Positions 56,635-63,368 of a DNA stretch of 64,000 nt are shown piece after piece. The notes under the pieces were generated by a model. That model was not told the origin of the DNA. It did not search any database and saw nothing but the letters and a program-made list of their open reading frames with translations. The stretch lies in assembly GCF_039645585.1 (NCBI RefSeq), contig NZ_CP147915.1:310001-374000 (forward strand), given 5' to 3'. Within the stretch, counting starts at the first letter, position 1, and each line of letters opens with the position of its first letter. The position numbers and the translations under genes were made by a program. This DNA comes from Sulfurimonas sp. HSL-1656 (GTDB lineage Bacteria > Campylobacterota > Campylobacteria > Campylobacterales > Sulfurimonadaceae).

Positions 56635-57255
56635 ATGGTCCACGAACTCTCTACGCCCCTGGCGACCCATCTTGTAAACAGGCTGCGTGACGAAGCCACC
56701 GACGCCGAAAGTTTTCGACGCCTGATCGCCCAACTGACGCTGCTTTTGGCGGATGCTGCGATCGGGACGGACGATCTGAACCCGGTGCGCCTTCAAACCT
56801 GGCGGGGGGAGGCGGAGTACCCCCTGGTTGCGGAGTCGGAGCTCCTTTTTGTGACGATACTGCGGGCGGGGCTGCCGATGCTCGAAGCGGCGATGGCGCT
56901 CTTCCCGCAGGCGTCGGCCGGTTTTCTGGCAATAAAGCGGGACGAAACGACGCACGAAGCGAAACTCTACTATGACCGTGTCCCCGACTGCCGCGGTAAA
57001 CATGTCATCCTCGTCGACCCGATGGTCGCCACGGGAGGCTCTCTTGCCGATGCCGTGACGCTGCTGCGCCGAAAAGCGCCGGGTCGGCTCACGTCGCTGC
57101 ATATCATCGCTTCACCCGAAGGGCTGGACAGGGTAAGCGCCGAGCATCCGGATCTTGCCCTCTATGTTGCCCGGATTGATCCGGGGCTGGACGCGGACAA
57201 GTTCATTCAACCGGGGCTTGGTGATGCCGGGGACCGGGCGTTTAATACACTTTAA
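56635..57255 (+). CDS. upp: Uracil phosphoribosyltransferase
   Basis: 206 residues. PRPP motif VILVDPMVATGGSLADAV, an N-terminal FRRLIAQLTLLLADAA and the C-terminal PGLGDAGDRAFNT are diagnostic. Converts uracil and PRPP to UMP in pyrimidine salvage. A GAAGGTGA ribosome-binding site lies upstream. Stands alone after the ribosomal operon. Confidence 0.95.
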   Translation: MVHELSTPLATHLVNRLRDEATDAESFRRLIAQLTLLLADAAIGTDDLNPVRLQTWRGEAEYPLVAESELLFVTILRAGLPMLEAAMALFPQASAGFLAIKRDETTHEAKLYYDRVPDCRGKHVILVDPMVATGGSLADAVTLLRRKAPGRLTSLHIIASPEGLDRVSAEHPDLALYVARIDPGLDADKFIQPGLGDAGDRAFNTL

Positions 57256-57339: not shown

Positions 57340-59385
57340 GTGAAATTTGGAGCGTTATGGAGCTGCGCCGTTCCGCTCGTGCTTCTTGCTTCCGGAACGG
57401 GAGGGGACGAGCTGTCCGCGCTGTTGGAAGCAGCGAACCGGGACGTGTCGGAGGCGGGTCTGAATCTCGACTATACGACGTCGGTCGTCTCGGTGCTTGA
57501 ACACGACCAGCTGTTCCGGCTGGGGGTGAATACCCTCTTTGAAGCCCTTTCGATTGTCCCCGGGGTCGAGACGAGTATCAGCCAGTTCGGGGTGAAGAAA
57601 GTCATCGTACGCGGCTTTGACAACCCTAACACCTTTACCTTTGACAAAACACGCCTTGAACTCGACGGCGTTCCCATCGAAACCGCTTTTTTGTCGAATA
57701 CGGCCACTTTCCTGGAACTGCCCGTTGCCGTGATCGAGCGCATCGAAGTGCTGCGCGGACCGGCGTCGGCCTATTACGGAAACGGTGCGTTTAACGGGGT
57801 CATCAGTGTGACAACACGGCATACGGAAGGGGACGGCAGCGCAGTGTTCTTCGGCGGGGGGAGCTACGCTTACCGGATGGGGGGCGGACGCCTCGTTGAA
57901 GCGCTGGGACCGGAGACGACGCTGCAGGCCGACGTTTATCTGCAGCGTTCCGAGAAATTTCTGTCTGCCGGGGACGACTTCGTTCCGCAATATATCTACG
58001 AGCCGGGAACGGGGACGATACCGTTCCTCCGTGCCCCCGAAAGCAACGAACGCCTGAACGATTACAGTATCGGTGCGACGATCGCCCATAATGGGTGGAG
58101 TCTGAAAAGCCGTATGAAGAGCCGTGAGAGCGGGAATTACTACGGATGGAACGAGCGCCTGGAGCTTGACACGGACCCCCGCAACATCGAGCGTTATTTT
58201 TTCGTCGAGGGCGGTTACGAAGCAACGCTCAGCGGGGCGACGACACTGCACACCACGCTGATGTACAGCTATTATGACCTGGATATCGAGGCACAGGACT
58301 ATTACAGGGACCCGGACACCGGTGTCATGGTGCCGTACCGTTTCAGTGTCACCGAAAGCGAGGACAAGTTCCGGGTCGAGAGCCGTATGAGCAGTACCGA
58401 GGTGGAAGGGCATCATCTGAACGCCGGGGTGCTCTGGCAACGCATACGGGAGCGGAACAATGAGATCAGCGAGGCACTGTCGCCCTACGGGGACCGTCCG
58501 GTCGTCGAACCGGGACTGCAGCGTGATAACATCGCGCTCTATCTTCAGGACAATTGGGACCTGGACCGAAGGTTCGGTATCCTGCTCGCCGCGCGGGGGG
58601 ATTACTATACCAAGGAGAAGCGGTTCTACCCGAGTGCCCAGCTCGGGGCCCTCTATACCCCGAATGACCGGTGGCAGCTGAAGGCCAATTACGGCCATGC
58701 ATTCCGGATCCCGTCATGGGTGGAGCAGTATTCGGTCGAATACGGCCCCGGGGACGGCACCCGAAGCGGTAATCCGGACCTCAAGGCCGAGACGACGGAT
58801 ACGTTTGAGCTGATCGCCATCTACAAAAAGGATGCCGCGCAGCGTTTCCAGGTCAATACCTATCACGCCCTGCAGCATGATGTCCTCGACATCGATGATA
58901 AGCCGGCTGAAGGCGGTTACAGGAACTGGCCGTCACGGACATCGACGGGGGTTGAAGTGGCCTATGACGCCATGCTGCTGGCCCAGGACCATCTGCATCT
59001 GAGTCTCTCCTATACAAACACGACGTACCAGACGGCCGGCAGCGGGATCGAGCAGTTGATGCCGACGGCGGCCATCTGGATGGGCAAGGGGTACTTTGTC
59101 CACTACCTGAGTCCACTCTTTTCCTTCTCCGTTTTGGCCAAGTATATCGGGGAACACCCCTATAACAGGGAGTTTGAGGCGCGGGCCGGGACGGTGAATA
59201 TGGACCCGTACCTGATTATGGATACGACGGTGGCCTATGTCAGCCCGCTGCACTGGAGCCTGCTTTTTTCCATCAAAAACCTGCTGGATGAAGACGTGCG
59301 TTATCCCAGCTACTACTCACGCCATCCTGACGGCCTTCCGCGGGAAGAGCGTAATTTCCTTGTGGAAGCCGAGTACCGGTTTTGA
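57340..59385 (+). CDS. TonB-dependent outer-membrane receptor
   Basis: 681 residues from a GTG with AAGG eight bases upstream. A hydrophobic N-terminus (WSCAVPLVLLASGTG) acts as signal peptide. Plug domain: NTLFEALSIVPGVETSISQFG, KKVIVRGFD, VAVIERIEVLRGPASAYYGNGAFNGVISV. The C-terminal beta-barrel has repeated aromatic strands and ends NFLVEAEYRF, with terminal Phe. No TonB box is clear. The ligand is unknown; no siderophore or metal genes are adjacent. Coupled to the YfiR-like gene by four bases (TTGA). Confidence 0.9.
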   Translation: MKFGALWSCAVPLVLLASGTGGDELSALLEAANRDVSEAGLNLDYTTSVVSVLEHDQLFRLGVNTLFEALSIVPGVETSISQFGVKKVIVRGFDNPNTFTFDKTRLELDGVPIETAFLSNTATFLELPVAVIERIEVLRGPASAYYGNGAFNGVISVTTRHTEGDGSAVFFGGGSYAYRMGGGRLVEALGPETTLQADVYLQRSEKFLSAGDDFVPQYIYEPGTGTIPFLRAPESNERLNDYSIGATIAHNGWSLKSRMKSRESGNYYGWNERLELDTDPRNIERYFFVEGGYEATLSGATTLHTTLMYSYYDLDIEAQDYYRDPDTGVMVPYRFSVTESEDKFRVESRMSSTEVEGHHLNAGVLWQRIRERNNEISEALSPYGDRPVVEPGLQRDNIALYLQDNWDLDRRFGILLAARGDYYTKEKRFYPSAQLGALYTPNDRWQLKANYGHAFRIPSWVEQYSVEYGPGDGTRSGNPDLKAETTDTFELIAIYKKDAAQRFQVNTYHALQHDVLDIDDKPAEGGYRNWPSRTSTGVEVAYDAMLLAQDHLHLSLSYTNTTYQTAGSGIEQLMPTAAIWMGKGYFVHYLSPLFSFSVLAKYIGEHPYNREFEARAGTVNMDPYLIMDTTVAYVSPLHWSLLFSIKNLLDEDVRYPSYYSRHPDGLPREERNFLVEAEYRF

Positions 59386-59936
59386 AACGGTGGGTGTTCC
59401 TGGTCCTCGTGCTGCCGCTGGCACTGGCGGCGTACCAGTATGAACCGGTGCTGCTGGAGACCCAGGCCAAACTTGCCCCCCGCCTGCTGATGATGAGTGA
59501 GGGAGTGGAAAAGCATTCGGCGGACCTGCTCTCGATCTGTGTCATTTACGAAGCGGGAGAAGGGGAGGTGGCGGACGCGTTTGCGGGGATGGTGCGCTCG
59601 GCGTATCCGGACGGCTGGAAAGGCATGAGGATACGGATCGTCAAAAGCCGCTACGAGGCACTGGAGACGCGCTGCGATCGCTGTGAACTTCTTTTTTTGC
59701 TCAACGCGGACGAAGAGAAAGTCCGGCGCGCCGTCTCCTATGCAACCGCGCATCAGAAACTGACAATGGCCTATGAGAACCGCTTCCTCGAAGAGGGGGT
59801 GCTGATGTCGCTGCATGTGGGCCGGAGTGTCCGCCCCTACCTTAACCTGCAGCAGGCCAAAGAAGCGGGGATCCATTTCAGCAGCGCTCTCAAGCGCATC
59901 TCCAAGTTCCTGGACCTGCCGAAGGAGACGCCGTGA
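59382..59936 (+). CDS. YfiR/DUF4154-like periplasmic protein
   Basis: 184 residues from a TTG start overlapping the receptor stop. Signal peptide (VFLVLVLPLALAA). DUF4154 features: SICVIYEAGE, the CDRCELLFLLNAD pair of cysteines near residue 100, and the C-terminal EEGVLMSLHVGRSVRPYLNLQQAKEAGIHFSSALKRISKFL, which matches the GMINFxxxxxxxxFEINxxAAxxAGLxxSS end of the family. In Pseudomonas, YfiR represses the diguanylate cyclase YfiN in the periplasm. The next gene here is a membrane-bound GGDEF protein. Confidence 0.8.
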   Translation: MKRWVFLVLVLPLALAAYQYEPVLLETQAKLAPRLLMMSEGVEKHSADLLSICVIYEAGEGEVADAFAGMVRSAYPDGWKGMRIRIVKSRYEALETRCDRCELLFLLNADEEKVRRAVSYATAHQKLTMAYENRFLEEGVLMSLHVGRSVRPYLNLQQAKEAGIHFSSALKRISKFLDLPKETP

Positions 59937-61258
59937 AGCCCTCTGTCAGCGTCCGGACCCGTATCCTCGGCACGGTCATCGTCTTCGCCTTTGCCCTTTT
60001 CATGCTGGTGCAGTACCAGTACGAGGTCAAGCTCAAAGTGATCCTCAATACGACCGAGCAGAGCAAGTACGAGACGGTGGCCGATACGGTCCTCCCTATC
60101 CTGGCGGTCAATACGGCTTTCGAACTCGAACATGAGAACCGCCAGTACATTTCCGAACTGGTGCGCCAAAATCCTGACCTCGTACGTGTTATCCTCACAG
60201 CCGACGGCATGGGGATGATTGACATCGGGGAACACATTGCAGAAAATACGACGCTGATCCGCCTGCATAAAATCGTGCCTGACCCGCAGGGCGGGAGTGC
60301 GCTGGGCGAAGTGACCTTCATCTTTACCAGCCGGGTTTTGCAGATGACAGAACAGGAGCACCGGACCTTCATCATCAGTTTCGTGCTCGTTGCGGGGCTG
60401 CTGTTGCTGCTGCTGATCGTCATCCTGCATTACGCTATGCGGCCGATTTACGTCCTGCTCAACTGGATCCGGGATTTCGACCCCAAAACCGATGACATGA
60501 GTACGATGCCGGAGGCGTGCTGCGATGAGGTGCGTATGATCGAGGAGTCGATGCAGCAGATGTTTGAACGTATCCGCCATTACACCGCGGAACTCGATGA
60601 ACTCAACCGTAACCTGGATGAGAAAGTACGTGAACGTACCGATGCCCTGAGCTGGACCAACGCGCAGTTGCAGGAGGAGATCCGAATTCGGGAAGCGGCG
60701 GAGCAGGCGCTGAAGGCGGCCAATGAACGGCTGACGGCGCTGAGCCGTCTGGATGTCCTGACGGGGATCGCCAACCGCCGTTCATTCCAGGAGCATCTGA
60801 ACGAATCCTGGGCGGTGTGCGTCCGCGAGCAGATCCCCCTCTCGCTCATTATCTGTGATATCGACCACTTCAAACGGGTCAACGATACCTACGGGCATCC
60901 TGCCGGTGACGTGGTGATCCGGAGCATTGCGGAGATCCTCGGTACAGAGATCAGGCGTGCATCCGACCTCGTGGCCCGCTACGGCGGCGAAGAGTTCGCC
61001 GTGATCCTATTCGATACCGGGTACGCCGATGCACTGGCGCTGGCGAAACGGCTGCAGGAGAAGGTCTGGGCAATGCCACCGCTTCCGCCGCCGGCGGAAG
61101 CGGTCAGCGGTATTACGCTCAGTTTCGGGTTTTGTTCGCTGGTGCCCGGGCCGCATGACAGCATCGCCAAATGCATCGCCGCCGCAGACCAGGCGCTCTA
61201 CAAGGCGAAAAAAGCGGGACGGGACCGCATCGTCTACGGGGAGTGCAGCGAGGAGTAG
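59933..61258 (+). CDS. Membrane diguanylate cyclase with HAMP-like linker (YfiN-like)
   Basis: 441 residues from a GTG in a GTGA overlap. A first membrane span (ILGTVIVFAFALFMLV), a periplasmic domain to about residue 140, a second span (FIISFVLVAGLLLLLLIVILHY), a HAMP-like region and coiled coil (RNLDEKVRERTDAL), then GGDEF. Active site is RYGGEEF near residue 350; the I-site RASD five residues upstream fits product inhibition. Synthesises c-di-GMP. Very likely regulated by the YfiR-like partner. Confidence 0.88.
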   Translation: MKPSVSVRTRILGTVIVFAFALFMLVQYQYEVKLKVILNTTEQSKYETVADTVLPILAVNTAFELEHENRQYISELVRQNPDLVRVILTADGMGMIDIGEHIAENTTLIRLHKIVPDPQGGSALGEVTFIFTSRVLQMTEQEHRTFIISFVLVAGLLLLLLIVILHYAMRPIYVLLNWIRDFDPKTDDMSTMPEACCDEVRMIEESMQQMFERIRHYTAELDELNRNLDEKVRERTDALSWTNAQLQEEIRIREAAEQALKAANERLTALSRLDVLTGIANRRSFQEHLNESWAVCVREQIPLSLIICDIDHFKRVNDTYGHPAGDVVIRSIAEILGTEIRRASDLVARYGGEEFAVILFDTGYADALALAKRLQEKVWAMPPLPPPAEAVSGITLSFGFCSLVPGPHDSIAKCIAAADQALYKAKKAGRDRIVYGECSEE

Positions 61259-61261
61259 CGC

Positions 61262-62383
61262 CTAATCCTCGGTGTGGTGTTTGGAAAGTTTGCGGATAAC
61301 GGTATCGATCTGGGCGCTGGTCAGGGCATGGGGCGCCTTGACCACGTTGCTGATATAGGCGATCTCCGTCACCGTCACCCCGTAAGGGTCTTTTTTCACG
61401 GAATAGGGCTTGCCGTTGCGCTCGGTGATCAGTTCCAGGTTCTTACGGCTGTGGGAGAGGAAAAAGTTGAGAATATACCCCCCGGCGTGCTCTTTCTCGA
61501 TGGCGATATAGGCCCGGGCGTCGTGCGGGTTGGCGATGCCGGGAAAGCGTTCGTGGAAGGCCTCGGGCTCCATGTAGCCGATGTACATTTTGACGAACAG
61601 GTCGTGGTAGCGCTGGACGGTTTTGGAAAAGAGGAACTGGGTGTTGATGACCCCGTTCTTGATCCGGGTTTTATTGAGCACCCAGCCCAGGGTATTGTAG
61701 TAGCGGAACGGATGGATTTTCAGATCCTCCGTTCCGACGATCTGCGCCCCGCTGATGCGTTTGAAGGGCTTGCGGCGCGGACGCTTCTCCTGCTGCAGCC
61801 ACTCGAAAACGCTTGCGGCGCTGTAGGGCTTGGTGACCCAGGCAGTCGCGTAATCGGGCAGGGTGCTCAGCCCCGTGACCCCTTCGTTGAGGATCAGGAG
61901 GGCCTTGATGGAGTAGTGCGGGAAGAGGGTCTGCAGCAGCGCCCGTTTCTTCCGCATGCGCTTGCGCAGGTTCGTCACCGAGCCCACCAGGGTCATCTCG
62001 ACGAAGTAGAGCTCTTTGTCCGTAAAGAACATCGCATCGAATTCACCGATCTCGTTACGCTTGATCCGGTAGACGATCTGCCCCTTCCAGTTGACGGAGA
62101 GGGCGTTCGGCTGGGCTTTCGTACGCTCCTTGTGGGGGCCTTTTACGATGAATTTTTTGATGAACTGATGCTGCTTGACGTAGCGCAGGAGCATTTCGTA
62201 GGCGTAGTTTTCGAAAACCTCGCCCTCGAAGGAGCGGTAGGCGCTCATAAAGGCGTCGTCGTCGGGTCCGAGCCCTTTTTTGAGCAGGGAGAGGAGGTGC
62301 TTGACGTGGTAGTCGTAGTAGAGGAGGTTATCGCCCAGTTCGCTGTCATCGAGGTTGGCGATGGCTTTGCTGATTTTGGGCAA
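61262..62383 (-). CDS. Hypothetical protein with PD-(D/E)XK-like core
   Basis: 373 residues from a TTG at 62383 with AAGGAG six bases upstream. A helix FEGEVFENYAYEMLLRYV near residue 52 is followed by NEIGEFDAMFFTDKELYFVEMTLVG near 112-136. This resembles the (E)..D..ExK core of PD-(D/E)XK nucleases such as DUF1887/Card1, but the final lysine is threonine (EMT). The C-terminal half is basic and unassigned. Convergent with the diguanylate cyclase, three bases apart. Confidence 0.55.
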   Translation of the reverse strand: MPKISKAIANLDDSELGDNLLYYDYHVKHLLSLLKKGLGPDDDAFMSAYRSFEGEVFENYAYEMLLRYVKQHQFIKKFIVKGPHKERTKAQPNALSVNWKGQIVYRIKRNEIGEFDAMFFTDKELYFVEMTLVGSVTNLRKRMRKKRALLQTLFPHYSIKALLILNEGVTGLSTLPDYATAWVTKPYSAASVFEWLQQEKRPRRKPFKRISGAQIVGTEDLKIHPFRYYNTLGWVLNKTRIKNGVINTQFLFSKTVQRYHDLFVKMYIGYMEPEAFHERFPGIANPHDARAYIAIEKEHAGGYILNFFLSHSRKNLELITERNGKPYSVKKDPYGVTVTEIAYISNVVKAPHALTSAQIDTVIRKLSKHHTED

Positions 62384-62483
62384 TAGAACTCCTTTTTTCG
62401 GGCACCTTCGGTTTCTTCGGCACATTATAGAGAAAGTCGGCTGTGAGTTTCCCGAAGCCGTGACGGGGTTTAATTTCAGAGGG

Positions 62484-62489
62484 TATAAT
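62484..62489 (+). promoter_or_regulatory. -10 hexamer immediately before a lipoprotein gene
   Basis: TATAAT ends seven bases before the ATG at 62496, so a start point there would give a leaderless or near-leaderless mRNA. No -35 is recognised. Confidence 0.4.
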
Positions 62490-62495
62490 AGAGGC

Positions 62496-63368
62496 ATGAA
62501 GAAATTACATAGTGCGATCATTGCAACGGCGGCTCTTTTGGCCGTGCTCTCCGGATGCGGACAGGTCGAGGATACGCAGACCCAGGATAATAACACCATC
62601 GACCTGCCGACGACCCCGGCGAACAACTGCCCGGCGGGGTCGTATTCGGAGAACGATTTCGGCTGCTACGACAGCAGCGCTCTTTTCCCGAGTGCAACGG
62701 GTGAGACGGTGGTCGAGGATATGTGGAGTGTCTATTCGCAAAGCAATACGAACCGTACGGACGGTGTCGTCTTTTATGACCGTTATCAGTTCGGGTACCA
62801 GTTTTCCGCACTGGGGTACGCTTTTCAGCAAAACGCGTCGGATGATTATACGTACTATGGAGAATGGGGGGTCGCCAGCAGCGGGAACCCGCTGAACGTT
62901 GGAAACTACAACGGGATACTTCACCAATACACGGCGACGGGCCAGGGGTTCCAGGGGCAGCCGAACTGTTACGAGGTGACCGATGACGGTACCACCCTCA
63001 AGCTCTGCCATGAAACGCTGCAGAACGAGGGAGCCACGCTGGGGAGCACGGGCTACTATTACGGTGCCACGGTCAAGTTCGGGAACCTGCTCAATTACAA
63101 CTTTACCGTTGTCGGTACATGGACGATATCGGGTTATGACGCCAACCCGGCCCCTGAGATGACGGTCTATTTCAGCGACAACGGCACAATCTCGACGGGC
63201 AGCGGCGGCGAATGGGGCGTCAGCGCGGACGGGAAAGTGATCGAGATCGCCGGGGTACGCTACCTGGTCTTTCAGTACCTCGACGACCCCGACGTGAACT
63301 GTATCGCGACCCTGGAACTTGCAGGCGGAACGGCGACGTCCACACTCTGGAAAATGTGTAAACAGTAA
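62496..63368 (+). CDS. Secreted lipoprotein of unknown function
   Basis: 290 residues. Signal sequence and lipobox LSGC (IATAALLAVLSGCGQ). A short Thr/Asn-rich linker, then a tyrosine- and glycine-rich beta region (FYDRYQFGYQFSALGYAF, GATVKFGNLLNYNFTVVGTWTISG) with paired cysteines (NCPAGSY/DFGCYD, NCYEV/KLCHE, NCIATL/KMCKQ). Six mature cysteines suggest three disulfides. No family recognised. Confidence 0.6.
   Translation: MKKLHSAIIATAALLAVLSGCGQVEDTQTQDNNTIDLPTTPANNCPAGSYSENDFGCYDSSALFPSATGETVVEDMWSVYSQSNTNRTDGVVFYDRYQFGYQFSALGYAFQQNASDDYTYYGEWGVASSGNPLNVGNYNGILHQYTATGQGFQGQPNCYEVTDDGTTLKLCHETLQNEGATLGSTGYYYGATVKFGNLLNYNFTVVGTWTISGYDANPAPEMTVYFSDNGTISTGSGGEWGVSADGKVIEIAGVRYLVFQYLDDPDVNCIATLELAGGTATSTLWKMCKQ

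Follow-up and report, generated by a model that had tools for sequence, protein, structure and literature searches.

Gene organization and domain composition of the operon

In the window, that is, the whole analysed stretch of 64,000 nucleotides from Sulfurimonas sp. HSL-1656, three genes on the forward strand formed an overlapping unit. The first gene (57340..59385, GTG start) encoded an outer-membrane protein of the TonB-dependent receptor (TBDR) family with 681 aa, the second (59382..59936, TTG start) a secreted periplasmic YfiR/HmsC-like (DUF4154) protein with 184 aa, and the third (59933..61258, GTG start) a membrane diguanylate cyclase with 441 aa. The four-base overlaps described in the initial annotation were confirmed (TTGA at 59382-59385 and GTGA at 59933-59936), and the domain identities were borne out by Pfam: Plug (PF07715, 1.2e-18), TonB_dep_Rec (PF00593, 8.6e-32), DUF4154 (PF13689, 2.3e-09) and GGDEF (PF00990, 1.9e-45). 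The overlapping gene order was common to genomes of the same genus and to a locus with about 35% identity (L101). The upstream neighbour at 56635-57255, which we took by eye to be a uracil phosphoribosyltransferase gene, and the downstream gene at 61262-62626, which was convergent to the operon, indicated that the operon consisted of three genes only. At this locus, neither a gene for the OmpA-like lipoprotein YfiB nor any fourth gene of the operon was found.

The receptor consisted of a plug plus a beta-barrel, and the Pfam scan did not find an STN signalling domain in its N-terminus. Its nearest solved structures were CirA, YncD and BtuB, with similarity mainly over the plug. NCBIfam gave no usable ligand hint, as all matches of the receptor lay far under the cut-off. 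The YfiR-like protein matched PF13689 with 37.9 bits against a curated cut-off of 24.9, and its AlphaFold model had a pLDDT of 94.6. The YfiR profile found no YfiR among PDB sequences, whereas the fold search did: Foldseek retrieved P. aeruginosa YfiR as 4yna (prob 1.00, TM 0.62/0.74) and also as 4xjy and 5eb1. The closest solved folds were a Rhodothermus substrate-binding protein and P. aeruginosa YfiR, and 3lft, an L-Trp-bound ABC-domain protein, was matched as well.

The cyclase was arranged as TM, periplasmic PAS/CHASE8-like domain, TM, coiled coil and GGDEF, as judged from Pfam, the structural model and hhalign. Direct reading of the sequence showed the GGEEF catalytic motif (60983..60997) and the RxxD inhibitory I-site (RASD, 60956..60967), so that the active site and the I-site were both intact, as first described. 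The N-terminus was modelled as TM-PAS-TM with a mean pLDDT of 79.5, and Foldseek on this model gave mostly weak matches to PAS/Cache-like sensor domains. Pfam made no CHASE8 call, and hhalign against the CHASE8 domains of YfiR-linked proteins gave a probability of 78-95%, varying by mode and segment. A HAMP domain was not called by Pfam in the window cyclase and was called in 2 of 21 homologues. In the hhalign alignment, A58-VNTA-F63 corresponded to the AAxxF motif of YfiN, which has been proposed as a YfiR contact (PMC3375315); the aligned position was often Leu in relatives. The periplasmic domain is probably a diverged CHASE8 domain. The cyclase thus resembles YfiN in layout, but its periplasmic domain has diverged and it carries an I-site.

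Conservation of the linkage among the three genes

A YfiR homologue was present in 31 of 60 related genomes, and nearly all homologues examined in context adjoined a TBDR gene together with a GGDEF or histidine-kinase gene. Because this first survey began from YfiR, it was repeated from the receptor side and from the side of the cyclase N-terminus. The results showed that 32 of 34 receptor homologues (E<1e-17, 60 genomes) had a YfiR gene adjacent or one gene away; one of the remaining two lay at a contig end, and the other (G403:C1) was unlinked. Two apparent exceptions, G404:C146 and G125:C15, were both linked when the loci were examined in full. On the cyclase side, at least 26 of 34 homologues adjoined YfiR. 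The co-occurrence that the initial annotation had proposed to check was therefore observed from the YfiR, receptor and cyclase sides alike. TBDRs of the home phylum were also adjoined by YfiR-linked cyclases in which a CHASE8 domain, the sensor type of YfiN, was recognisable.

The arrangement of the triads varied and included same-strand genes, divergent receptors, permuted orders and fusions. In several relatives, the receptor gene was divergent and not co-transcribed with the other two. DUF4154 was fused to GGDEF at four loci (L125, L126, L127 and L030) and to a hybrid histidine kinase at another (L128), in each case beside a TBDR gene, and these fusions argue for a single pathway. The distance matrices of the three proteins correlated at r 0.90-0.93 over 34 triads, a correlation for which the species tree accounts in part.

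The genome itself carried a second triad at about 100-106 kb (L069:1659-7012, about 100.2-105.5 kb), which was only about 22-28% identical to that of the window, and in a distance comparison the two triads grouped with the same partners whichever of the three proteins was compared. The second triad comprised a TBDR, a YfiR-like protein and a GGDEF-EAL protein. Its GGDEF site was degenerate (SADEY) and its EAL-type motifs seemed to be kept; from these motifs, the output of the second triad is probably a phosphodiesterase. The gene preceding it encoded an acyltransferase with matches to PF13444 and exosort_acyl and a weak one to LuxI/TraI autoinducer synthases. The six sister triads that were inspected (L087, L088, L093, L094, L098 and L107) all had a gene of this acyltransferase family directly upstream of the TBDR gene, with TIGR03694 matches below the cut-off.

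Outside these genomes, a receptor-based scan of named genomes returned at least 80 loci, with a YfiR gene within 1.5 kb in 33 of the 80 listed; as the receptor alignment was searched by a single pattern, these frequencies are not population estimates. A contig scan of the named genomes with a single YfiR protein gave no match. The linked loci listed spanned Shewanella, purple sulfur bacteria, Geomonas, methanotrophs and acidobacteria. The outputs in these other phyla were GGDEF, GGDEF-EAL or histidine kinase proteins; kinases were frequent, and one of them (L230) had a CHASE8 domain. At two loci (L208:9957-10967 and L209:9860-10885), a PF04392 substrate-binding protein was encoded directly downstream of a related TBDR without YfiR, at the place of YfiR, and at one of the two a GGDEF gene followed two genes beyond.

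The N-terminal segment of the receptor

At the usual site of the TonB box, the receptor had a pre-plug segment, LLEAANRDVSEAGLNLDY (residues 28-45, 57421..57474, forward strand), in which no TonB box was found with a tight, empirical pattern. A TonB-box-like match to this tight pattern was found in none of 35 YfiR-linked receptors of the window type and in 20 of 25 unlinked receptors, which were drawn from ten genomes and were in some cases near-identical across sister species. A loose pattern matched before the plug in 25/25 unlinked receptors. Conversely, an N-x-D type segment occupied the TonB-box site in 31 of the 35 linked receptors and in none of the 25 unlinked ones; both patterns were set post hoc on related sequences, which makes p-values optimistic. 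N42 of the receptor was invariant in alignment A1. G403:C1, the sole unlinked close homologue, kept a VTTAS box.

A better test was provided by an independent set of named genomes gathered from the receptor side. Among the loci listed, receptors with the strict segment AT[KR]xxxNxDxxP adjoined YfiR at 11/11 non-edge loci, compared with 21 of 62 for the others. The window receptor kept only the LNLDY end of the segment and did not match the strict pattern. A second receptor type (SLEELMNxxVTS), also YfiR-linked, often retained the box, which indicated that box loss is a trait of the window type and not of all linked receptors; many YfiR-linked receptors in other phyla had a VTS-type box. Taken together, receptors of the window type lacked the TonB box of unlinked receptors in the same genomes and had a conserved N-x-D segment instead. 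That the N-terminal segment predicts linkage suggests a contact between receptor and YfiR-like protein. The initial annotation had named ligand uptake or occupancy as the signal; since the receptor has no TonB-box-like sequence, uptake is doubtful and occupancy sensing is likelier. The receptor is probably a sensor prompting a change of lifestyle rather than an importer.

Proposed mechanism and alternative explanations

We consider it fairly probable that the operon encodes a three-part trans-envelope signalling line, in which receptor occupancy is passed by a YfiR-like relay to c-di-GMP synthesis. In this line, the TBDR-family receptor would bind an outside ligand and shift its conformation. 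Its short periplasmic N-terminal segment, replacing the TonB box, would contact the YfiR-like protein, which in turn would control the periplasmic domain of the cyclase. Occupancy would change the hold of the segment on the YfiR-like protein and thereby the repression of the cyclase. The TBDR-family protein would thus take the place of YfiB in a YfiBNR-like relay, and by analogy with YfiBNR the default would be that YfiR represses the cyclase and the occupied receptor draws YfiR off. The proposal starts from what was observed: gene content and overlaps, joint conservation of the three genes, a YfiR fold, an intact GGEEF motif and the lack of a TonB-box-like sequence. Physical contact between the proteins, the way in which control runs, its sign and the existence of one ligand are presumed. 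As for the coupled operon first described, its genomic linkage was strongly supported, being conserved, duplicated within the genome and present across phyla; the CDRC pair proved not to be conserved, and uptake is doubtful.

The main alternative, which we regard as unlikely though still a serious competitor, is that the receptor imports a ligand, which the YfiR-like protein binds in the manner of a periplasmic binding protein before regulating the cyclase, with no contact between receptor and YfiR. YfiR represents half of a substrate-binding fold, consistent with the Foldseek matches to the Rhodothermus protein and 3lft, and P. aeruginosa YfiR weakly binds vitamin B6 or L-Trp (PMC4887326). 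The PF04392 proteins beside two related receptors, one of them near a GGDEF gene, would also fit. Receptors of the window type, however, have no TonB-box-like sequence, and the linkage predicted by their periplasmic segment suggests contact; the missing box tips the balance towards an occupancy relay.

Sensing of redox state or envelope stress is quite improbable; here the YfiR disulfide would receive the signal, as has been suggested for other YfiR systems, and the receptor would merely be co-regulated. The only cysteines of the YfiR-like protein were C53, C98 and C101. The CDRC pair, which had been pointed out in the initial annotation, was not conserved: C101 occurred in only 2 of 38 homologues and was lineage-specific, which ruled out CDRC as a redox motif. 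The covarying pair was C53/C98 (16 homologues with both, 20 with neither and 2 with C98 alone), and these residues likely form a disulfide. C53 aligned with Cys71 of P. aeruginosa YfiR, and Cys110 aligned at C101, three residues from C98; the Cys71-Cys110 bond alters the P. aeruginosa protein (PMC4887326). The covariation and this precedent agree with redox sensing, yet about half of the homologues, including the close relatives L074-L076, lacked both cysteines and kept the operon. A chance or purely operonic neighbourhood with no common pathway is hardly credible, as the linkage was conserved in same-strand, divergent, permuted and fused arrangements and across phyla.

A more far-reaching version of the occupancy relay is speculative and, in our view, unlikely. 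A widespread TBDR-derived class would have lost its TonB coupling and turned into dedicated ligand sensors, acting via YfiR on c-di-GMP or kinases. Since the sister-triad receptors are preceded by a gene for a LuxI/exosortase-acyltransferase-like enzyme, the cell may itself make the ligand, as an N-acyl signal; the outcome would be a quorum-type circuit at the outer membrane whose outputs oppose each other within the same cell. These outputs may be the active-looking GGEEF cyclase of the window and the EAL protein with degenerate GGDEF of the second triad.

Should TBDRs prove to be the usual partners, they would supply the input of YfiR-type systems without YfiB, and for many uncharacterised YfiR-kinase and YfiR-cyclase operons the input would be defined as a single outer-membrane ligand per operon. 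Some members of the TBDR family would then be sensory instead of transporting and recognisable from the N-terminal segment alone.

Comparison with known systems

In FecA-FecR cell-surface signalling, occupancy of a TBDR is relayed by periplasmic contact to an inner-membrane regulator, and the output is an ECF sigma factor. The occupancy relay proposed here would run toward the inner membrane in the same way, but the window receptor has no STN domain, the relay is a soluble YfiR-like protein and the output is c-di-GMP. HmsCDE of Yersinia is a related YfiR-family/cyclase system. YfiBNR of P. aeruginosa, with homologues in E. coli and Klebsiella, likewise has a YfiR-family protein adjoining a TM-PAS-TM-GGDEF cyclase and an outer-membrane partner. 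That partner, YfiB, is in P. aeruginosa a peptidoglycan-binding, OmpA-like lipoprotein, unlike the TBDR of the window. The structural disulfide of P. aeruginosa YfiR, Cys145-Cys152, had no equivalent in the window protein. YfiN lacks the I-site that the window cyclase has (PMC10127611).

Two families of adjacent-numbered, evidently neighbouring genes in Thalassolituus oleivorans are also on record, namely NCBIfam NF053591 (TOL_0243, YfiR-like) and NF053590 (TOL_0244, TBDR), the latter being up sevenfold on C28 alkane (PMC6304351). The window proteins differed from both, scoring 24 against a cut-off of 125 bits and 64 against 645 bits, respectively. Apart from these families, what is already known is the modular YfiR-YfiN pair, often without YfiB. 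A search of titles and abstracts, with subscription journals largely outside its reach, found no description of a TBDR partner of YfiR.

YfiR-YfiN has been reported as a modular pair (Malone et al. 2012, PMC3375315); most of the distant pairs have no yfiB, their outputs differ, and TonB is not mentioned in that paper. The placing of a TBDR in the YfiB position, made by analogy in the initial annotation, fits these yfiB-less pairs and the conserved linkage. The core module is the same, with GGDEF, GGDEF-EAL or kinase outputs and yfiB frequently missing, and what the present analysis adds is a receptor partner with its N-terminal segment.
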